The notes under the pieces are model-generated. The model had not been told where the DNA came from. It saw nothing but the letters and a program-made list of their open reading frames with translations, and searched no databases. 64,000 bases of DNA from Anaeromicrobium sediminis. GTDB taxonomy: Bacteria; Bacillota; Clostridia; Peptostreptococcales; Thermotaleaceae. The position numbers and the translations under genes were made by a program. Shown piece after piece: positions 4,129 to 12,824 of the stretch (its first letter is position 1; every line of letters starts with the position of its first letter). The DNA lies in contig NZ_NIBG01000007.1 of NCBI RefSeq assembly GCF_002270055.1, positions 124,001 through 188,000 of the forward strand. Reading direction: 5' to 3'.

Positions 4129-4281
4129 CTTCATACCCCCACATAAAAACTTTATTTCTCTAAATTATATTTCTTTATTTCTAGTTTAAAACCCTTTTCA
4201 TAATAATTAAGTTTTAGTAACCTATAATATCCATATGAATATATTGATATTATAGGAAAATTTTTATTAGGGGGGATTTTT

Positions 4282-4533
4282 GTGAAAAAGTTTAGAAAGA
4301 CGGCTCTTTTTCTCACCTTGGTACTAATCATGTCAATGGCATTTGTTGGTTGCGGTGACAAAGCCATGACTACAGTTCGGTTAGCAGAAGTTACTCACTC
4401 AGTATTCTACGCACCTCAATATGTGGCCATAACCAATGGTTTCTTTGAAGAAGAAGGAATAGAATTAGAAGTGATTAATGGCCAAGGTGCAGATAAAACT
4501 ATGACTGCTCTATTATCTGATAATGATACCTAA
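4282..4533 (+). pseudogene. 5' part of an interrupted ABC substrate-binding lipoprotein gene
   Basis: This encodes the first 81 residues of an NMT1/SsuA/TauA-type solute-binding lipoprotein. A GTG start is preceded by AGGGGGG. The signal peptide ends in a lipobox-like AFVGC, so the cysteine near residue 24 would be lipidated. HSVFYAPQYVAITNGFFEEE is the typical beginning of the family. Codon 81 ends at 4524; after it the reading frame enters the inserted element and stops at a TAA at 4531 inside the element's terminal repeat. The rest of the gene resumes at 12060. No permease or ATPase gene is adjacent, so the ligand cannot be inferred. Confidence 0.9.
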
Positions 4534-4546
4534 GGATAGGATTTTT
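4516..4546. other. Left attachment site (attL) of the serine-recombinase element
   Basis: The junction of host gene and element. TC at 4516-4517 and TAAT at 4521-4524 are shared, at the same offsets, with 12051-12052 and 12056-12059 at the other end. A 22-bp arm at 4525-4546 is the exact reverse complement of 12025-12046. The exact crossover dinucleotide is not decided by the sequence, but any point in this stretch gives the same restored gene length. Confidence 0.75.
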
Positions 4547-4690
4547 TCAAAAAAACCAAGTCATGATTTGATCCTAGTTTTAGATTAATTCTTATTCTAA
4601 CAATGTGATTTAATGCTATAATTTCAAATTTCATGATGGGAATGTACTTTCATAATGTATGATGTTAATGAGTATAGGATAAAGAAAAGA

Positions 4691-5320
4691 TTAACTTACG
4701 GATTTATTATAAATTAAATCTGTGTAGAGTGTGCTTTTATAGGATTCATATCTTAAACCTGAAAGGGTATAATTTTGCTTTTCTCTAAAAGCAAGGGAAG
4801 CAAAATTAGGGGTAGGACTGATTATTGTTTCTGCAAATATGTTCTTAATATTTTTTAATTTTAAATCCTTCATCAATCTTTTATAAAGAATGCTGCCAAT
4901 CCCATGTCCTGTTAAATTTGACAATATGGCTGTCTTATCTATGACCACAAAGTCATCTAACTTAGTTTTATCAAAATCTGGTCTCCAACATATATCTTCA
5001 ATCCAATTAGGATTACTTTCTAACCATTGTTCTTTTGTATATGCCATTAAAAATCCAACAACCCCGCTGTTTTCTGCAATATAAAAATGATCTAATTGAA
5101 GAATTTTCTCCATGAAAAAATTTTTATAGTGTTTGGGATTTGATGTATAATCATCCATCAAAAAACCTGCTTGGGATATCTTCGTTTTCTTGCCCACAGA
5201 ACAAGCCACACCATATATTTGAGATAAGTCCTTTTTTGAAGCTTTTCTTGTATTAAGTATATTTAATTTCTTAATACTGTTTTTTGTACTACAAGTTTCA
5301 TACAAGTTTACTAAATCCAT
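4691..5320 (-). CDS. GNAT family N-acetyltransferase
   Basis: A 209-residue protein carried at the left end of the element. The first 25 residues are outside the fold. Then come the beta-strand start LNTRKASKKDLSQIYGVA, FYIAENSGVVGFLMAY (strand 4) and the acetyl-CoA loop TGHGIGSILYKRLMKDL near residue 148. The substrate is unknown; the family acetylates amino groups of proteins or small molecules. A GGGGG box lies about 9 nt before the ATG. The gene points out of the element toward attL and seems to be separate from the signalling operon. Confidence 0.75.
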   Translation of the reverse strand: MDLVNLYETCSTKNSIKKLNILNTRKASKKDLSQIYGVACSVGKKTKISQAGFLMDDYTSNPKHYKNFFMEKILQLDHFYIAENSGVVGFLMAYTKEQWLESNPNWIEDICWRPDFDKTKLDDFVVIDKTAILSNLTGHGIGSILYKRLMKDLKLKNIKNIFAETIISPTPNFASLAFREKQNYTLSGLRYESYKSTLYTDLIYNKSVS

Positions 5321-5760
5321 ATAACTTTGTCCCCCTTTTTATTTTACAAGCTAAATACCGGATAAAAATACTTTTATCCCATTTTCATATTTTAACGCTT
5401 ACGCGGTTAATAACGGATTGTACTCGAAAGAGAATGTCTCCCCTCAAAAGGAATCCATCCAAAAGATTACCTCCTTCATTTCTCTCACGAAAGAATTCAG
5501 TAATTAGATACACCAATATAAACTGTTTTGAAAAAAAACAGCAAAATATAAAACTTTCATATATGGTTTTGATACTCAATGAAAAGAATAAAATATAAGA
5601 AAAACAATGAGAATTTATTCTTGTTTAAGAAATGATATCCTAAAGAAATGAATCTGTTTTGCAGATTGGAGTATATTAGGATAAGTTTACTAATATTCAT
5701 AGTATAGCATAAATTTCAGAATATTTCAAATATTATCCATAGAATTAAAGGACATTTAAA
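5321..5760. other. Intergenic stretch upstream of the element's acetyltransferase
   Basis: About 440 bp without a convincing gene. Short open frames on both strands lack ribosome binding sites and resemble no family I know. On the minus strand the stretch just upstream of the acetyltransferase contains GGATAAAAGTATTTTTATCC, a hairpin at about 5360-5380. Before that is a segment with ACCGCG and several purine-rich blocks that could form a leader RNA, but I could not match it to a riboswitch class. Confidence 0.4.
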
Positions 5761-5761
5761 T

Positions 5762-5889
5762 AAAAAAGACATACTCCGTAATCTGAGCATGCTCCTTTAA
5801 AGAGGCAGGGGAATTCTTCCCCCACACCCCCTTATTTTTTTACTTATTCACAGCTTTGAAAATTTATAATTTCCTAGTAAGTAAAAAAG
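5762..5889 (-). repeat. Terminator-abutting structured repeat, copy B (internally deleted)
   Basis: A copy of about 128 bp inside the mobile element, on the minus strand, directly after the terminator of the STAS gene. It keeps the first AT-rich stem and the G-rich hairpin GGGGAAGAATTCCCC. It then jumps from CAGATTACG to the terminal part TATGTCTTTTTT, so the third and fourth hairpins are missing. Confidence 0.8.
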
Positions 5890-5911
5890 CAAAGAATTTA
5901 ATCTTTGCTTT
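5883..5911 (-). terminator. Intrinsic terminator of the partner-switching operon
   Basis: On the minus strand AAAGCAAAGA and TCTTTGCTTT form a stem followed by T residues, immediately after the STAS gene. The T-tract runs straight into repeat copy B. Confidence 0.8.
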
Positions 5912-5916
5912 CTTTA

Positions 5917-6195
5917 TTATTTAATATTAAATACTTTATCTAATCTTGTTAATTCAAAGATCCTCATAACTTGTGAATTAATTGAATGAAGTTTAAGATT
6001 AGCATTTATTTCTTCACATTTTTTATATATTGATACTAATACGCCAAGCCCTGTACTATCAATAAATGTACATTCACTAAAATTAAGTGTAAAATCTCTT
6101 TCACCTTTGTTAATTAATAGAATTATTTCTTCTCTAAAATCAGAAGCCTCATCTACTGCAAAATTTTTAGGTATTATAATGTTTGATGTATTCAC
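5917..6195 (-). CDS. STAS domain anti-sigma factor antagonist
   Basis: A 92-residue single STAS domain, the usual length of SpoIIAA/RsbV-type proteins. The segment FIDSTGLGVL near residues 44-53 carries the conserved Ser that the partner kinase phosphorylates. In the unphosphorylated form such proteins bind the kinase and release its target. The GTG start follows GAGGTGA, 2 bp after the chemoreceptor stop codon, so it is the last gene of the operon. Which target protein is released is unknown, because no sigma factor gene is in the element. Confidence 0.88.
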   Translation of the reverse strand: MNTSNIIIPKNFAVDEASDFREEIILLINKGERDFTLNFSECTFIDSTGLGVLVSIYKKCEEINANLKLHSINSQVMRIFELTRLDKVFNIK

Positions 6196-6197
6196 TT

Positions 6198-8201
6198 TTA
6201 TTCACCTCGAATCTTAAATTTTACTACAAGATCATTTAGGCTATTAGCCATAGCACTAGTTTCTTCTGCGCTAGCAGCTAAATTCTCTACTACTGAAGAT
6301 TGTTCTTCCGTTGATTTAGCCACTTCTTCGCTATTTGTTGCTGTAGTTTCAGTAATGGTTGCAACAGAATCAATAAGATTTATGATTTGATCTGAACTTG
6401 CAACTTCATCTTTCGTCACATCTACTATTTGTTCAACGTCTTTCACTATTTGTTCTACTGCATTTATAATACTAACAAATGATTTGTCTGTTTCATTTGC
6501 TACGATTACACCATTTTCTACTACTTGCTTGCCTAAGTTCATGGATTTAACAGCAGCATTTATTTGAGTTACCATTTGATTTACTAATGAAGCTATTTCA
6601 TTTGCTTCAACACTTGTTTGTTCTGAAAGTTTTTTCACTTCATCTGCTACCACTGTAAATCCTCTGCCATGTTCGCCAGCTCTTGCAGCTTCAATAGCCG
6701 CATTTAATGCTAATAAATTTGTTTGATTTGAAATTTTATTGATTGTTTCAATAATTCCACTAACTTTATTAGAAAGTTCATTTAATTCTTTTAGTATATC
6801 TGCTGTTTCAGTTGATACTTTATTAATATTTTCAATAGCTTCAACTGTTTTTTCAACATTATTTCGTCCTTCCTCAGCAGCTATTTTAGTACCTCCTGAA
6901 TTATCTTTGGCTTTAATAGCTTTACTTTGTGCTATTTGAATTAAACTCGAAAGCTGAACTAACACTTCAGAAGTTTCAATTATAGTATTATTTTGATGTT
7001 CTGCATTTGCCGCAACTTCTTGTATATTGGCTGTAATCTGCTCAGTTGATGCACTTACTTCTTCTGTAGAAGCAGACACCTCTTCTGAGGCAGCCGCTAA
7101 ATCCTCTGCCCCTTTTCTAACATGACTTATTATATTTGATTGATGTTCTATCATTTGATTGAAATATTCACCTAATGTTTGTATTTCATCTTTTGTAGTT
7201 ATTTTTGATTCAACTGTTAAATCCCCATCCCCTGCTTTTATCATTAACTCTTCTAAATTTTTAATAGGATTTATTATATTTCTTGTTGTAATCATATAAG
7301 CTAAAAACATTGCAATAATCAATGCTGCAACAGTTATAATAATCGTATCCTTTTTAATAGCTGTTGCCACAGCCATGTACTCGTCATAATCGGCTGTTAC
7401 TGCTATAATCCAATTGTTTGAGGGAGTAAATCTTACGAATTTACGAACTCCTTCGTATTCATAATACCCTTCATCTGTTTTTCCTGATATCATTTTTTCT
7501 ACTAATTTATGTAATTGTTCATTATCTATATCTTTTATATTTTCTTTCAATATTTTTTCTTTTTTAGGATGATATACAAATAATCCATTTTTATCGATCA
7601 TATATGCATATCCATTTTCTCCTATTTTTATCTCAGAAGCATGTTTGTTTATATTTTCAAACTTAATTGTTCCAGTTATTGTTCCCACAATTTCATTATT
7701 AAGCTTTAAGGGATAAGCGATTGCTATTATAGGTTTTTTTGAAACTTTAGATATAATTACTTCACTTATATGTTTAGAGCCTTTTAAAGCACTTTGCACA
7801 TATAATCGATTACTTAAATCTATATTGTATTCCTTATCATCACTACTAATAACTCCTTTACCTGATTGATTTGTAATAATTATCTTTTCTATTTCCTCAT
7901 GATTTTCGTCTTGAAGAGTTTTTAAATATTTAAAAATTTCAGAGTGATCTTCAATGTTTCCTGTGGCAATTTTAGCAAAGTCCTTGTTATGACTTAAAAC
8001 TTGTACATATTTATCTACTGAGTTTACAGTTTGATTAATAGCTTTAGATGTTTCTTCAGTAATTTGTCTTAACTCTTCCTCCGTCAAATGTTCCATTGAA
8101 TTTGAAGCCATACTGCTAGATATAATGCCTAAAATAATAAGTGGAACTGAAATAAATATAAAAAACATTGATATTAACTTGGTCTTTAAGCTCATTTTCA
8201 T
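6198..8201 (-). CDS. Methyl-accepting chemotaxis protein with extracellular Cache domain
   Basis: A 667-residue transmembrane receptor. A membrane segment at about residues 10-33 precedes an extracellular double-Cache-type sensor to about 285. There is a second membrane segment at about 287-309, a HAMP domain, and a long cytoplasmic coiled coil. The conserved signalling tip [19 protein letters not shown] lies near residue 510. Such receptors normally control CheA. Here the gene sits between an RsbW-like kinase and a STAS antagonist, with no che genes nearby, so the receptor may feed the partner switch or simply share its regulation. GGGAG lies 8 nt before the ATG. Confidence 0.9.
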
Positions 8202-8220
8202 GTGTATTCTCCCTCCCCAA

Positions 8221-8604
8221 TTAATAACATAAATATTTTTGTATAATCAACATATTCCCTTTGTACTCAACGTTATCAGCCATACTTTTAATAAGAAATA
8301 ATCCTCTTCCTGAACCATCTAATAAATTTTCGTCTGATATTTCATTAGGGATAGTTATATTTTTTTGATTAGATCCTGAATCTTCTATTTCAAACTTTAA
8401 TTCATTATTGTTGTAAAAATATCTCAAATAAATAGACTTTTTATTGTTACTTTTATTTCCATGTTTATAGGCATTGGTTAAAGCTTCTGTAAGAATTAAT
8501 TTTATATCAAAATAATACTCAGAAGCATTTAAGTCCCTAATAACTTCTTCAATAATTTTTTTGTATTGAGTTAAATCGTACAAAACAAATTCTCTTTTTT
8601 TCAT
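8221..8604 (-). CDS. RsbW/SpoIIAB-like serine kinase (HATPase) anti-sigma factor
   Basis: A 127-residue GHKL ATPase domain without a transmembrane part. The N box [10 protein letters not shown] (near 45), G1 box EIEDSG (near 73) and G2 box [14 protein letters not shown] (near 97) are present. By family, it should phosphorylate the STAS protein of the same operon and otherwise hold a target protein such as a sigma factor. It lies 18 bp after the phosphatase gene and 19 bp before the chemoreceptor gene. Confidence 0.85.
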
Positions 8605-8622
8605 TTTTACGTGCTCCTTATT

Positions 8623-10053
8623 TTATTTAATTTCTACTGATAACAAAGTGCAATCATCTTTTATTCCGTCTACATTCTCCGATATATTTTTCAAGTGTTT
8701 ATTTAAATAATTTATTACATTAATTGGTGTAGCTTTTTCAATATATTTTTCAGTAATTTTTGTATTGTTAAATATAGATTCTAGTCCATCAGTAAAGAAA
8801 TAAAATTTATCGCCTCTATCAAAGTGAATTACCTGTTCATCAAATATGCTATCTTCAAACATTCCTAGAAAAGGTCCTTTGATAATTCGTTTTTCAATTA
8901 GATTATTTTTATGTTGAAATACGAATTCATTAATACCTGCTGCTGCTATTTTTGCTTCATTTTTTTTAAAGTCAAGACTAAAGCAACATACGGCAACGTA
9001 TCTTTCTCCTAAATAATCAATGACTTTCTTATTCAAATGATTGATTATAGTGTGTGGGTTTTGATCTTTTAAAATTGCTTCATGAAATAAAACATTAAAT
9101 GCAGATATACTAAGAGCAGCTGACATTCCTTTTCCACTTACATCACCAATTATTCCAACAATTAAATCTTCGTTTATTTTGTTAATATAAAAAAAATCTC
9201 CACTAACTGTTTTTGCTGGTACATAAAGAGTTTCTACATTAATTCTAGTTGATAAAGGAACTATTGTCTGAAAATTTCCTTTTTGAATTTTTGCAGCTGC
9301 ATTTAACTCTTTTTTCCTTTCAGTAACATCCCTAATTATTGAGAGAACTGCAGGCTTTCCTTGATAAATTAAATAGTTTGAACATACTTCCCCATCTATT
9401 ACACTCTTATTTTTGAGAGTAATCTTATAATCTAAGGTAGCTTTTTCCTTTTTAGTTTCAATTATCTGATTAATCCTCTTTTTAGCAGTTTCTGAATGAT
9501 CAGGTATTAATTCCCATACGTCCTTTCCAATAATTTCATCAAAATATTTTAATGCTACTTTATTTGCTAAAACAATTTTACCATCTACTGTAATAATTAT
9601 TGGATCGGGTAAAACATTCACTATTTCCTTATACCTTATTTCATTTTCTTCTACTATCTTTTCTAATGCTTTCTTTTTAGTAATATCTTGTGATTGGACA
9701 ATAACAAATCGTGCTTCTCCTAATTTATTTAATACGGGAGTATATTTATATTTCATATATTTATTTACTTCTGGAATAACTTTTTCTGTTTCTATTACTT
9801 TTTTAGTTTTGATAGCCTTTTCAAAAAAACAATTTAAGCATTTTTCATTTCTATTTAACATTTCATAACATTTTTTACCCTTAATTTTACTTTTAGTTGT
9901 ATTGTAAAATTTATAACCAGCTTGGTTATAGAACATAATTGTTTTATTGAGACTATATACTCCTACGACATCCGAAATGCTTCTAGCTATGATTTCTAAC
10001 AATTCTAAGTCATTAAAATCTACTTCTTCATCTTGTATAAATATTTCTTCCAT
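8623..10053 (-). CDS. PAS-PAS-PP2C (SpoIIE/RsbU type) serine phosphatase
   Basis: A 476-residue cytosolic protein. Two PAS domains (about 14-125 and 128-245) precede a PP2C-type phosphatase domain (about 250-474). The phosphatase motifs SGDFFYI, GIIGDVSGKGMSAALS and FFTDGLES carry the Asp residues expected to bind two Mn or Mg ions. The first PAS domain holds a small Cys cluster, GKKCYEMLNRNEKCLNC, that could bind a metal or sense redox. It should dephosphorylate the STAS protein and so turn the switch on. AGGAGTGA precedes the ATG; this is the first gene of the operon. Confidence 0.88.
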   Translation of the reverse strand: MEEIFIQDEEVDFNDLELLEIIARSISDVVGVYSLNKTIMFYNQAGYKFYNTTKSKIKGKKCYEMLNRNEKCLNCFFEKAIKTKKVIETEKVIPEVNKYMKYKYTPVLNKLGEARFVIVQSQDITKKKALEKIVEENEIRYKEIVNVLPDPIIITVDGKIVLANKVALKYFDEIIGKDVWELIPDHSETAKKRINQIIETKKEKATLDYKITLKNKSVIDGEVCSNYLIYQGKPAVLSIIRDVTERKKELNAAAKIQKGNFQTIVPLSTRINVETLYVPAKTVSGDFFYINKINEDLIVGIIGDVSGKGMSAALSISAFNVLFHEAILKDQNPHTIINHLNKKVIDYLGERYVAVCCFSLDFKKNEAKIAAAGINEFVFQHKNNLIEKRIIKGPFLGMFEDSIFDEQVIHFDRGDKFYFFTDGLESIFNNTKITEKYIEKATPINVINYLNKHLKNISENVDGIKDDCTLLSVEIK

Positions 10054-10105
10054 ACTATGTCACTCCTATTTTGTTAAACAATTATAAAGACATAAGTCTT
10101 TTTAA

Positions 10106-10146
10106 TATTACCATATAATCCAATTGATTTCTATTATATGGTAATA
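10106..10146. promoter_or_regulatory. 14-bp perfect inverted repeat between the phosphatase and recombinase genes
   Basis: TATTACCATATAAT (10106-10119) and ATTATATGGTAATA (10133-10146) are exact reverse complements around a 13-bp spacer. Each arm holds a TATAAT, one facing the recombinase and one facing the phosphatase gene. It could be an operator over a divergent promoter pair, or the promoters themselves. Confidence 0.5.
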
Positions 10147-10271
10147 AACTTATTAAATCATTATCATAAGTAGTCTTTTCCATTAATGTCTTTCACCCAT
10201 TTATAAATTTAGTAATAAATATTATGGCTATTTGCATATGTCTTAATATATCTACCTAAGAGGTGATTTTT

Positions 10272-11756
10272 TTGAAAGCAGCCCTGTATCTCCGTGTAAG
10301 TACTGAGGAGCAAGCTTCTGGTGGCCACTCTATCCAGGCCCAGCAACAAGAATTAATCAAATATTGTAGTGCCTTTGATTATGATATTTATAATTTTTAT
10401 ATTGATGCTGGATATTCTGCAAGTACTATGAATAGGCCCGCATTAAAAAAGTTATTAGGAGATTGTAAAAAATATGATATAGCCCTAGTATGGAGATTAG
10501 ACAGGCTTTCTAGAGATATGGCAGATCTAATGAAAATAATAGAAATATTTACAACCTATAATATAATATTTAAATCTAAAACAGAAAGCTTCGATACCTC
10601 CACTGCCTCTGGTAAATTAATGCTAAACATGCTAGGTTCCTTTGCTGAATTTGAAAGAGCTTCCATAAGTGAAAGAATTCAACTGGCTCATAAAAAAATA
10701 TTAAATGAAGGAAAATGGAGAGGTGGAAGACCTCCTTTAGGATATGAACTAACCCAAGATAAGACCCTAAAAATCAATAAAAATGAAGCTCAAATTATAA
10801 GAAAAATATTTGATCTTAGTGCAAATAAAAATATTGGTACTAGAAGTATAGCTATCCACCTTAATAATTTAGGATATTTGACTAGAAATAAGAAAGCTTT
10901 TAGCAGTTCTTCTATTGTTCGCATATTAAAAAACCCCACTTATTATGGTGAGATGGTCCATAAAAGACAACAATATATAAAAAAAGATGGCAAGAAAAAA
11001 GTAGTCTATTCAGATAACTATACTACCTATAAAGGACTATATGAGCCTATAATCTCTAAAGAAATATTTCTAAAATCTGAAATCAATATAAATAGAAGAA
11101 AACTAAATCGTGGAACCTCTTCTAAAATTCCAAATTTATTATCTGGTCTTATCTTTTGTGGAGATTGTAAGGAATATATGCTTAGAAACACCAGAAAAGA
11201 TGGGGAAGTATTTTTCACCTGTAAAAGTTATAAGCACTATGGAAAGTGTACTCACCATTACATATCAGAAAATATAATTATGAAAGAAATACAAAGAAGT
11301 ATTCAAAACCTAGAAGAATCTGAAAGCACAGTTTATGAAATGAATAAAAAGTTGATTAAGAAAAAAGATCATAAATTATATATTATCGAAAATGAAATTT
11401 CTACAATACAGGAAAGTATTCATAGTATTTCCAAGAGAAAGGATAAACTATTTGAACTCATTGAAAAAGAAATAATTACAGAAAAGGATTTTATAGAAAG
11501 AAAGAAAAAGCTATCTAAGAAAAATGAAGAAAAAAATAAACTCTTAAAGGAATTACAATCCAAACTAGATAATATACAAAATTATCAGGAAAATAAGGAT
11601 TTTATTCCCTATATAAAATCCTTTACTAAAGATTTTCATACCCTCTCTTTTAACTCAAAGAAGAAAATCTTAAATATTATCATTGAGCGTATAGAAATAT
11701 TTCATAATGATAGGCCCTATGGAAGAAAAAAAATTCATATCTATTATAAGATTTAA
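10272..11756 (+). CDS. Large serine recombinase (site-specific integrase)
   Basis: About 494 residues, the usual size of large serine integrases. The catalytic domain starts with LYLRVSTEEQA, holding the nucleophile Ser. It continues with WRLDRLSRD and GSFAEFERASISERI, which supply the catalytic Arg residues. A recombinase domain follows (GTRSIAIHLNNLGYLTRN). Next is a zinc ribbon with the cysteine pairs FCGDC and FTCKSYKHYGKC. A coiled coil at about 360-450 and a C-terminal tail end the protein. AAGAGGTGAT lies just before the TTG at 10272, so that start is preferred to the GTG at 10263 inside the ribosome binding site. It should excise and insert the element by recombination between attL and attR. 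Confidence 0.92.
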   Translation: MKAALYLRVSTEEQASGGHSIQAQQQELIKYCSAFDYDIYNFYIDAGYSASTMNRPALKKLLGDCKKYDIALVWRLDRLSRDMADLMKIIEIFTTYNIIFKSKTESFDTSTASGKLMLNMLGSFAEFERASISERIQLAHKKILNEGKWRGGRPPLGYELTQDKTLKINKNEAQIIRKIFDLSANKNIGTRSIAIHLNNLGYLTRNKKAFSSSSIVRILKNPTYYGEMVHKRQQYIKKDGKKKVVYSDNYTTYKGLYEPIISKEIFLKSEININRRKLNRGTSSKIPNLLSGLIFCGDCKEYMLRNTRKDGEVFFTCKSYKHYGKCTHHYISENIIMKEIQRSIQNLEESESTVYEMNKKLIKKKDHKLYIIENEISTIQESIHSISKRKDKLFELIEKEIITEKDFIERKKKLSKKNEEKNKLLKELQSKLDNIQNYQENKDFIPYIKSFTKDFHTLSFNSKKKILNIIIERIEIFHNDRPYGRKKIHIYYKI

Positions 11757-11762
11757 CTTGGA

Positions 11763-11800
11763 GACATTTAGTGCTTAGTATTATTCACTAAATGTCTTTT
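11763..11800. terminator. Bidirectional terminator between recombinase and small gene
   Basis: GACATTTAGTG and CACTAAATGTC form a perfect stem followed by TTTTT on the plus strand. The convergent small gene ends inside the stem. Confidence 0.8.
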
Positions 11801-12023
11801 TATCTGAACTCATATACTCTTCCAAAATAATATTCACCACATCATCTGGTATACCTCTTTTTCCCTTCTCATCTGGAGCTGTCATAAAAAAAGCTATGGA
11901 TGTGCCATAATCCTCTTTATACCTCTTCCCATAGGGTGTGTCTACCCAATTATCCATATGGACTCTCCCCTTCTCATTTACTACTAATACATATGAATAC
12001 TGCCTTTGTCCATATTCCCTCAA
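11781..12023 (-). CDS. Small uncharacterised protein at the right end of the element
   Basis: An 80-residue acidic and aromatic protein that I do not recognise, containing YVLVVNEKGRVHMDNWVDTP and a C-terminal helix DDVVNIILEEYM. No membrane segment or zinc motif is visible. The TTG start at 12023 is preceded by AAGGATAGG, which lies inside the 22-bp terminal arm, so its translation signal is part of the attachment site. Serine integrases often need a small directionality factor for excision, and such genes can lie close to the recombinase. That role here is only a guess from position. An earlier in-frame TGA on the minus strand bounds the frame. Confidence 0.55.
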   Translation of the reverse strand: MREYGQRQYSYVLVVNEKGRVHMDNWVDTPYGKRYKEDYGTSIAFFMTAPDEKGKRGIPDDVVNIILEEYMSSDKKTFSE

Positions 12024-12024
12024 T

Positions 12025-12059
12025 AAAAATCCTATCCTTAGGTATCTTTTTCATCTAAT
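12025..12059. other. Right attachment site (attR) of the serine-recombinase element
   Basis: The 22-bp arm 12025-12046 is the reverse complement of 4525-4546. After a 4-bp T stretch come TC (12051-12052) and TAAT (12056-12059), at the same spacing as in the left junction. The host gene resumes with CAA GTA GAT ATT GGA at 12060. In an excised circle the two arms would face each other across 13 bp, the symmetric layout expected of an attP. Confidence 0.75.
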
Positions 12060-12824
12060 CAAGTAGATATTGGATTTATGGGTCCTGAAGCCTCTGTTTA
12101 TGTATATAACAAGGGTAAGGATGACTATGCAGTTAACTTTGCTCAATTGACCCAAAGGGACGGATCATTTTTAGTGGCCAGGGAGCCTATGCCAAACTTT
12201 ACTTTCGATATGGTTAAGGGAAAAACTATTATAGGTGGTCGAAAAGGCGGTATGCCAGAAATGACTCTAGAATATGTTTTAAAATCTAACAAGGTAATGC
12301 CAGGTAAAGATGTAAATGTTAGAACAGATATACAATTCTCCGTAATGGCTGGAGCCTTTAAAGGTGGAGAAGGAGATTTTGTAACTCTGTTTGAACCCGT
12401 TGCTTCTTTAATGGAAAAGGAAGGTGCAGGACATATAGTGGCTTCAATCGGTAAGGAAGGTGGCTATATACCATATACTTGTTATTCTGCTAAGAAGAGT
12501 TTTATAGAAAATAATCCTGAGATTATTCAAAAGTTTACTAACGCTATCTATAAGGGAATGCAATGGGTAGAGGCCCATTCAGCAGAAGAAGTAGCAGCTG
12601 CCATATCTCCACAGTTCCCTGATGCAGATCTAGAAATATTAACAGAGGTTGTTAATAGATACAAGGCACAAGATACTTGGAAACCTGATTTGATTCTTAC
12701 AGAAGAAGGATTAAATCATATGATGGATATAGTTGAAATGGCTGGAGAACTAGACAAGAGAGCTCCTTATGATAAAATAGTTACTACTGAGTTTGCTAAA
12801 AAGGCTATGGATAGTATTAAATAA
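12060..12824 (+). pseudogene. 3' part of the interrupted ABC substrate-binding lipoprotein gene
   Basis: A continuous frame of 254 codons that continues the NMT1/SsuA-type binding protein. It begins QVDIGFMGPEASVYVYNKG, the typical segment after the ALLS of the 5' part. GKTIIGGRKGGMPEMTLEYV and ACTUALLY family-typical binding-cleft regions follow to the C-terminal helix. Joined to codons 1-81 it gives 335 residues, the usual length of the family. Alone it has no start codon with a ribosome binding site at the family N-terminus; the ATG at 12078 is an internal Met. The frame is intact over its whole length, which suggests a recent insertion or continued selection on the restored gene. Confidence 0.9.

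Follow-up and report, generated by a model that had tools for sequence, protein, structure and literature searches.

A compact serine-recombinase element splitting a ytlA-like lipoprotein gene, probably excised in the mother cell

Few sporulation genes are named as developmentally rebuilt in the literature that we searched: sigK, spsM, spoVFB, gerE, yabG and spoVR. In the skin elements of sigK (skin in B. subtilis, skinCd in C. difficile) a serine-recombinase element splits a mother-cell gene, and excision of skinCd is reported to be driven by CD1234, a directionality factor of only 72 aa that was identified as such together with CD1231 in E. coli assays (PMC5025042). B. cereus ATCC10987 carries gin in gerE, described as a non-phage element whose large serine recombinase (LSR) is GirC and whose small factor is GirX (42 aa). 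Its att sites contain an inverted repeat that is imperfect, and the attP sites of serine recombinases are there said to be symmetric about a central dinucleotide (PMC5595907). SP-beta in spsM, vfbin in spoVFB and yin in yabG are likewise intervening elements in sporulation genes (PMC10747680; for SP-beta also PMC4191935).

The locus described here has the layout of the skin elements, differing in its host gene, which is ytlA-like instead of sigK. Compared with gin, which spans 28.6 kb and carries three recombinases, our element is 7.5 kb long, has one recombinase and signalling cargo, and lies in a transporter gene. A ytlA-like host gene is not reported as interrupted in the literature searched.

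The split gene and its element

In the 64-kb window (the whole stretch of DNA analysed), Pfam identifies 4282-4517 and 12056-12824 as two pieces of one NMT1-family lipoprotein. Both frames are open, in agreement with the sequence-only reading, which had proposed a lipoprotein gene split in frame. The features of the locus, in window positions, are as follows.

4217..4245, + strand: split-gene promoter of sigma-K type, GTAAC (AC at 4220-4221), N16, AATATATT
4282..4517, + strand: 5' part of the ytlA-like lipoprotein gene, through core TC
4516..4517, + strand: attL core dinucleotide TC
4525..4546, + strand: left attP half-site arm, with a perfect inverted copy at 12025-12046
4691..5320, - strand: GNAT acetyltransferase (Pfam PF00583)
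5917..6195, - strand: STAS anti-sigma-factor antagonist (Pfam PF01740; TIGR00377 above cut-off)
6198..8201, - strand: chemoreceptor-like protein with dCache, HAMP and MCP signalling domains (Pfam)
8221..8604, - strand: HATPase_c_2 protein like the anti-sigma-factor kinases RsbW/SpoIIAB (Pfam; NCBIfam below cut-offs)
8623..10053, - strand: PAS-PAS-SpoIIE-type phosphatase (Pfam)
10263..11756, + strand: LSR, 497 aa, with Pfam Resolvase, Recombinase and Zn-ribbon (Zn_ribbon_recom) domains
11781..11960, - strand: conserved small protein, 59 aa, candidate recombination directionality factor, with counterparts at this end of the G013 and G015 elements
12025..12046, - strand: right attP half-site arm, inverted copy of 4525-4546
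12054..12055, + strand: attR core dinucleotide TC
12056..12824, + strand: 3' part of the ytlA-like lipoprotein gene, stop codon included, frame open

The sequence ATCT is common to both junctions. The crossover is best placed at the TC within it (4516-4517 and 12054-12055), because these two bases flank the midpoint of the attP palindrome. With this crossover the element measures 7,538 bp, and cutting it out exactly leaves an in-frame gene of the length usual for the family, 335 codons including the stop (334 aa), which reads ALLSNQVDIG across the joint as does the intact relative L014. The shared TC and the 335-codon joined gene had been anticipated, whereas the 7,535-bp excision through TAAT that was put forward with them does not hold: the resulting protein (ALLSDNQ) is one residue longer than the family and the crossover lies off the palindrome centre.

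Together, the two element ends make up an almost perfect palindrome around the core TC, in the manner of attP half-sites. Of 25 half-site positions 22 match, whereas 200,000 random pairs drawn from the window average 7.2 matches and never exceed 18. At the same codon elsewhere the match is 20/25 in G013 and 16/25 in G015, the latter within the random-pair range. The arms proper are 22 nt long, perfectly inverted, and lie within the longest inverted repeat found in 4400-12200; they are not mentioned in the sequence-only reading.

A search of the organism's own genome for the split-gene orthologue returned only the two fragments, together with two distant paralogues (28% and 21% identity). This finding, and the fact that neither end of the gene is duplicated at the locus, argue against the target having been restored by a replacement gene end carried on the element, with no need for excision. 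Gene remnants of this form do occur, in G028 (a full copy plus extra 3' copies), in G446 (where a 5' fragment accompanies a full copy) and in the organism's own ytlC, present as one truncated and one full copy, but we regard this explanation as very improbable here. An assembly artefact or chimera might be suspected in a 55-contig draft genome. The junctions are, however, internal to a 204-kb contig, and two other assemblies have this recombinase family at that codon too, which leaves an artefact with almost no credibility.

The LSR gene ends 298 bp short of the right core and its product carries all three recombinase domains, bearing out the earlier placement of a large serine recombinase near the right element end. 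Its best NCBIfam matches are CcrB, CcrC (Ccr of SCC) and XisF (of the fdxN element), all far below the curated cut-offs, so that it is assigned to none of these. At a membership threshold of E <= 1e-75 its family is found in 3 of 393 genomes including this one, in every case at codon 80 (codon 79-80) of the gene.

The remaining genes, judged by their products, indicate a compact, non-phage element. A PHROGs scan of six element proteins, with the MCP ORF left out, matched families of integrases, invertases and proteins of unknown function, besides a single transcriptional regulator, and contained no phage structural or replication family; this sets the element apart from SP-beta, vfbin and yin, which are prophages or prophage-like. 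The Pfam matches of the MCP ORF above cut-off are chemoreceptor domains. No relaxase or conjugation family is present among the Pfam matches of the seven element ORFs, and temperate prophages and integrative conjugative elements, which would be recognized by phage genes and by relaxase or conjugation genes, respectively, were rejected on the ORFs scanned. A phage origin was also set aside: an alignment of the three site-80 LSRs gave 35 pattern matches in viral_contigs, none confirmed as a relative, and matched 240 phage records (E <= 1e-30), all below 60% identity and at most 36% identical among the 10 matches listed. Defence cargo, considered on Pfam results alone, was discarded. The signalling genes have what we take to be their counterpart in RsbU-RsbW-RsbV partner-switching modules, which likewise combine SpoIIE-type phosphatase, HATPase_c_2 and STAS proteins, but here the STAS and HATPase genes are separated by that of the chemoreceptor, and no sigma factor occurs among the element ORFs scanned.

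A small ORF is present at the right end of all three site-80 elements. The 59-aa protein has no match in the profile libraries searched and, from its position and conservation, is the candidate directionality factor. The sequence ATA-N17-CATA lies upstream of the small ORF in all three elements (three related sequences), and a sigma-E-like motif precedes the recombinase in two of them. A sigma-K promoter for the small ORF was rejected, as AC-N15-17-[CA]ATANNNT is found upstream in 0/3 and the ATA-type (sigma-E-like) sequence in 3/3. A SpoIIID-like sequence upstream was also set aside, since matches to the B. subtilis consensus are frequent by chance.

Sporulation link of the host gene

The split gene resembles ytlA, a gene of the mother-cell sigma-K class, with putative orthology to B. 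subtilis YtlA. In B. subtilis ytlA, ytlC and ytlD are listed as sigma-K genes (PMC3416734), and in C. difficile 630 sigma-K promoters are listed for ytlC and for a 'Fragment of ABC-type transport system' (CD1891) (PMC3789822). The orthologue is carried by 102 of the 393 genomes of the order; spoIVA is over cut-off in 99 of these carriers and not in 3, as compared with 60 and 231, respectively, of the non-carriers. Upstream of the gene, the pattern GTAAC-N15-17-[CA]ATANNNT is present in 33 of 38 genomes (mean 0.17, maximum 2 in 200 shuffled sets), a count made on related sequences with a pattern set after a first look at the upstream regions. The five misses are G072, G083, L076, L098 and L139, all but L098 having the AC form without the full GTAAC; G210, where the locus ends too soon, was left out. 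Because of the spoIVA distribution, the sigma-K-type promoter and the published regulon lists, we count the gene as sporulation-specific. Its product is probably the lipoprotein that binds substrate for YtlACD, a sporulation transporter that would be used late in spore formation.

Split copies in related genomes

Most orthologues in the order are uninterrupted, and 19 of the 102, as judged by eye from the match table, are split, at codons ~80, ~176, ~190 or ~250. Outside these 19 stand G028 and the partial matches of G097, G106, G209 and G377. Junctions were read at base level for 15 sites in 13 of the 19 split genomes; the gene halves lie on different contigs in G072, G119 and G158. Twelve of the 13 have an LSR within the split or next to it, the exception being G119, whose contigs end. 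The recombinases cluster by codon, with 56-77% identity within groups and 19-44% between them. At least five groups (about three deeper clades by identity) occur at no fewer than five ytlA codons: four were read in this order, and another family adds one near codon 68. The search of relatives thus yielded both things proposed for it, the intact gene and an element of the same family at codon 80 in two other genomes. The recombinases of these site-80 elements differ by 23-30% between genomes, which disfavours the recent insertion once suggested, at least for the element family.

These data bear on the simplest rival, in which a selfish LSR element has disrupted a dispensable gene whose halves are now decaying relics. 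That the gene is uninterrupted in most carriers of the order agrees with it, as does the cargo, which differs from that of both site-80 relatives (G013 and G015, whose excised circles would measure 3.7 kb), so that the element moves or exchanges parts. Selection, in contrast, argues against it. In genus g44, where a split copy is common to six species, dN/dS is 0.076 and 0.039 for the two halves, indicating strong purifying selection on both; the values come from eight genomes of another genus, with another att site than this locus. Synonymous divergence of gene and recombinase is correlated (Pearson 0.92, Spearman 0.79; 15 non-independent pairs). Because both halves are constrained and the recombinase diverges in step, the split gene of this genus appears still to be used. 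Stops were seen in four halves (G119, G210, G173, G253), none among the eight genomes; in G119, G210 and G173 the stop is on the element side of the junction.

In the lineage of our organism synonymous sites are near saturation. Its 3' half matches intact copies in conservation (pN 0.09-0.12 to relatives; 0.06-0.12 among intact copies), and the earlier observation that the downstream half has neither frameshift nor stop is upheld. In its 5' half, amino-acid change reaches or slightly exceeds the highest values for intact copies (pN 0.15-0.22 against 0.06-0.20), a result compatible with slight relaxation and, again, with plain disruption. Both halves are nevertheless open, and a single sporulation gene carries several recombinase groups; we consider plain disruption unlikely, though it is the strongest of the rivals.

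Predicted excision and other split genes

We favour, with fair confidence, a skin/gin-like element that is excised in the mother cell, rebuilding the ytlA-like gene; that the element is excised in this organism, when and in which cell this happens, and what the 59-aa protein does are what we infer. Vegetative cells would carry the split gene. During sporulation, the recombinase and a directionality factor, probably the 59-aa protein, would act in the mother cell to recombine the TC cores, releasing a 7,538-bp circle and leaving the exact 334-aa gene behind its sigma-K-type promoter. The element would be retained in the forespore and so be inherited at little cost. The skin-type comparison drawn in the sequence-only reading gains weight from the sigma-K, mother-cell class of the gene and from the purifying selection on the split copies of genus g44.

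LSRs can integrate and, with a factor, excise. The element might thus leave and return in growing cells, giving a mixed population, and the joined gene would be scarless. With a sigma-K-type promoter, however, the excised gene would be expected to be silent in such cells, and frequent re-integration of a non-replicating circle seems unlikely; phase variation accordingly strikes us as a poor prospect. The like splitting of the same transporter genes in many relatives points instead to rebuilding of the gene in the spore-making cell alone.

The sigK gene of the same genome is also split by an element with two LSRs, which are only 24-28% identical to the LSR described here. In four relatives ytlC is split beside an LSR, and these recombinases, found at one ytlC codon, are related to the ytlA ones. 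If mother-cell excision is correct, ytlA, with ytlC in relatives, adds a transporter targeted by several recombinase groups to the rebuilt genes, offers a handle on the preference of elements for sporulation genes and on the coupling of excision to the mother cell, and explains the sigma-K-dependent 'gene fragment' of C. difficile.

Ethanolamine-utilisation (eut) genes lie between the split ytlC halves in two Clostridioides-like genomes; gene order and eut gene lengths point to genus g44 being Clostridioides. Published locus tags suggest the same eut/ytlC arrangement in C. difficile 630, and a metabolic operon of that genus may then sit on such an element. In a broader proposal, to which we give roughly even odds, integrative elements of spore formers share the YtlACD genes as a safe harbour, because a gene needed only in the dying mother cell can be rebuilt there by excision; the mother cell would then delete the eut operon at each sporulation.

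The element and its probable crossover site

The two parts of the interrupted gene, at 4282-4517 and 12056-12824, both match the NMT1 lipoprotein family in Pfam, bearing out the sequence-only reading that halves of one family flank the 7.5-kb element. The bacterium's own genome holds no second copy, only the two pieces and two distant paralogues (28% and 21% identity). The element encodes one large serine recombinase (LSR), a GNAT acetyltransferase, a phosphatase with PAS domains, a HATPase_c_2 protein, a STAS protein and a dCache chemoreceptor (Pfam); the phosphatase, HATPase_c_2 and STAS genes, with the chemoreceptor gene among them, look like a partner-switching-type module. No phage structural or replication families were matched by six element proteins in PHROGs, where the hits were to integrase, invertase and uncharacterised families plus a single regulator, and Pfam identified no conjugation genes among seven element ORFs. 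Phage relatives of the LSR comprise 240 records, all below 60% identity and at most 36% among the matches listed. A small ORF is also present, taken as 59 aa because conservation in relatives covers that part only.

Small ORF of the element
11781-11960, minus strand, 59-aa ORF at the right end of the element, length set by the conserved part

The longest inverted repeat found in the region is the pairing of the two element ends. Joined as they would be in an excised circle (attP), these ends form a palindrome centred between the T and C of the TC shared by both junctions. The half-sites match at 22 of 25 positions; 200,000 pairs drawn at random within the window match at 7.2 on average and 18 at most. 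Such symmetry about a central dinucleotide is described for attP sites of phage serine recombinases in the paper on gin, the intervening element of B. cereus gerE (PMC5595907). Crossover at TC would remove 7,538 bp and give the joined reading ALLSNQVDIG, which is that of an intact relative (L014). The in-frame joining proposed earlier stands, while the proposed loss of 7,535 bp and reading of ALLSDN give way to these values, since they do not fit the palindrome centre.

Among 393 genomes of the order, three encode LSRs of the window's family (E <= 1e-75), one of the three being the window's own, and each copy lies at this codon (~80) of the gene. The search of relatives suggested by the sequence-only reading located elements of this family at the same codon in G013 and G015, with LSRs 70 and 77% identical to the window's. 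These elements are smaller (3,725 bp in G013, 3,723 bp in G015). Both retain the small ORF, likewise at the right end, but their cargo differs, with one chemoreceptor-type gene in each; the attP half-sites match at 20/25 positions in G013 and only 16/25 in G015. The LSR, small ORF and ends are constant and the remainder varies.

Sporulation and a possible mode of excision

Our provisional naming of the gene as ytlA rests on gene context and published work. Directly before the orthologue of Clostridium ihumii (L139) come genes for an ABC ATPase and a BPD_transp_1 permease. In published tables, ytlA, ytlC and ytlD are among the sigma-K genes (PMC3416734), and the sigma-K part for C. difficile 630 includes ytlC (CD1927), the permease CD1904 (no promoter assigned) and CD1891, labelled 'Fragment of ABC-type transport system' in a table that likewise calls sigK a fragment (PMC3789822). 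Across the 393 genomes, spoIVA is over the cut-off in 99 carriers of the gene and not in 3; among non-carriers the numbers are 60 and 231.

The pattern GTAAC-N15-17-[CA]ATANNNT lies upstream of the gene in 33 of 38 regions (200 shuffled sets: mean 0.17, maximum 2), and 37 of the 38 have a less strict pattern that requires only AC-N15-17 (shuffled mean 5.7, maximum 13). Sigma-K promoters are described as having AC as the -35 element with a shared -10 (PMC3789822). Because the pattern was set after looking at the sequences and the 38 regions are related to one another, we take the motif to show conservation rather than sigma-K use.

In skinCd, the intervening element of C. difficile sigK, a constitutive LSR awaits a 72-aa factor under sigma-E/SpoIIID control (PMC5025042), and gin has the 42-aa GirX (PMC5595907). 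By analogy with these two, the 59-aa protein is the best candidate for the LSR's factor. All three codon-80 elements have the motif ATA-N17-CATA upstream of the 59-aa ORF, and two of the three have it upstream of the LSR, a conservation that is no more than suggestive. Excision in the mother cell would yield an intact lipoprotein gene, and the spore would retain the element. The open-access literature, preprints aside, yielded in its available portions no earlier report of an element in ytlA or ytlC; one paper names ytlC as one of the sporulation genes that occur in phages, with integration not mentioned in the portions available (PMC10294663).

Other insertion sites and selection on split copies

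The orthologue is present in 102 of 393 genomes (E <= 1e-22) and in separated pieces in 19 of these, as judged, with the codons, from the match table; for 15 junctions, spread over 13 genomes, the sequence was read to the single base. Splits fall at codons ~80 (3 genomes), ~176 (11), ~190 (3) and ~250 (4), with two splits each in G015 and G067. LSR identity (BLAST) is 56-77% within one codon and 19-44% between codons, ranges that exclude an extra LSR of G210 (48-50% to the codon-176 group). The codon-176 and codon-190 groups are distant relatives (40-44%), and the separate LSR groups therefore fall in fewer, deeper clades. A class-wide search, with the gene in 142 of 391 genomes, indicates a further site in another family, f51, at about codon 68: both halves with an LSR between them in G631, and an LSR adjoining the 3' half in G574. 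The 5' half is absent from the stretches examined in G649, G679 and G696 of this family. These f51 codon-68 LSRs share 41-43% identity with the codon-250 group.

In G210 a third ytlA piece (residues 215-334, from codon ~215) lies beside the further LSR (L070 2345-3874) and may mark an additional site. Two codon-250 elements each carry a Spore_permease gene (L054 5114-6214; L059 4574-5686), a sporulation-related cargo (Pfam: spore germination protein). Alongside a full ytlA, G028 (L071, L072) has repeats of the 3' part that begin at codon ~185, and G446 (L181) has a 5' fragment reaching codon ~81; these extra copies are possibly traces of elements bringing a replacement gene end.

In genus g44 the gene is interrupted at codon 176 in six genomes, each from a different species, and intact in two; the LSRs of the six are related (82-90% identity to that of G065).

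dN/dS in genus g44 (5' part; 3' part)
Six split copies, 15 pairs: 0.076; 0.039
Split-intact pairs: 0.123; 0.081
Single intact pair: 0.139; 0.109
LSR: 0.115

Without rejoining of the gene, selection of this kind on a 3' half remote from its start would be difficult to maintain. Gene and LSR have diverged in parallel at synonymous sites (Pearson 0.92, Spearman 0.79; 15 non-independent pairs), as would be expected of an element resident throughout; separate late insertions instead of one long-resident element retain a residual probability. In the window's lineage synonymous sites are near saturation. There, pN to relatives is 0.09-0.12 for the 3' half (0.06-0.12 among intact copies) and 0.15-0.22 for the 5' half (0.06-0.20), the latter reaching or slightly exceeding the top of the intact range.

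Interrupted ytlC and sigK

Matches to ytlC stop near codon 205 in all five genomes examined. In G065, G103, G107 and G015 the missing 3' end adjoins an LSR, and the permease gene comes next; the G006 stretch examined lacks this 3' end.

Split ytlC loci of four relatives, LSR adjoining
L200 1840-6903
L203 and L205
L204 and L206
L201 and L207

The ytlC parts are 24 kb apart in G103 and 28 kb apart in G107, where EutA, EutB, EutC, EutH and EutP (Pfam) lie between them and the LSR beside the 3' part. All seven ORFs tested from this G107 stretch recur in the same G103 stretch at 97-99% identity, and none of the seven was found within the 20 kb of G065 searched. Ethanolamine (eut) genes separate the ytlC parts in both G107 and G103. 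Published tags of C. difficile 630 have the order ytlC CD1927, eut genes CD1926-CD1907 (PMC3483176), recombinase CD1905 (PMC2784873) and permease CD1904, from which we infer the same arrangement as in G103 and G107. In G065 the ytlC parts are only ~4.3 kb apart, with a release-factor-3-like gene between.

In the window's own genome a permease gene follows a full ytlC, and a truncated ytlC copy lies ~9 kb from the full one (the two at L166 708-1490 and 10225-10902, G000:C34). The copies share 94.6% DNA identity along 691 nt that include the upstream region, a layout that suggests restoration of the gene by an insertion. This genome's sigK is also split (L153 7663-8031 and 15238-15480, G000:C1), by an element with two LSRs: one is 43-46% identical to the codon-250 group, while the second shares 39-43% identity with the codon-176 and codon-190 groups.

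LSRs of the sigK element
L153 8082-9728, minus strand
L153 12163-13692, minus strand

Another serine recombinase of this genome (L156 8268-9971) is located where an ORF (9923-10978, minus strand) ends; this ORF looks like a shortened comM/yifB.
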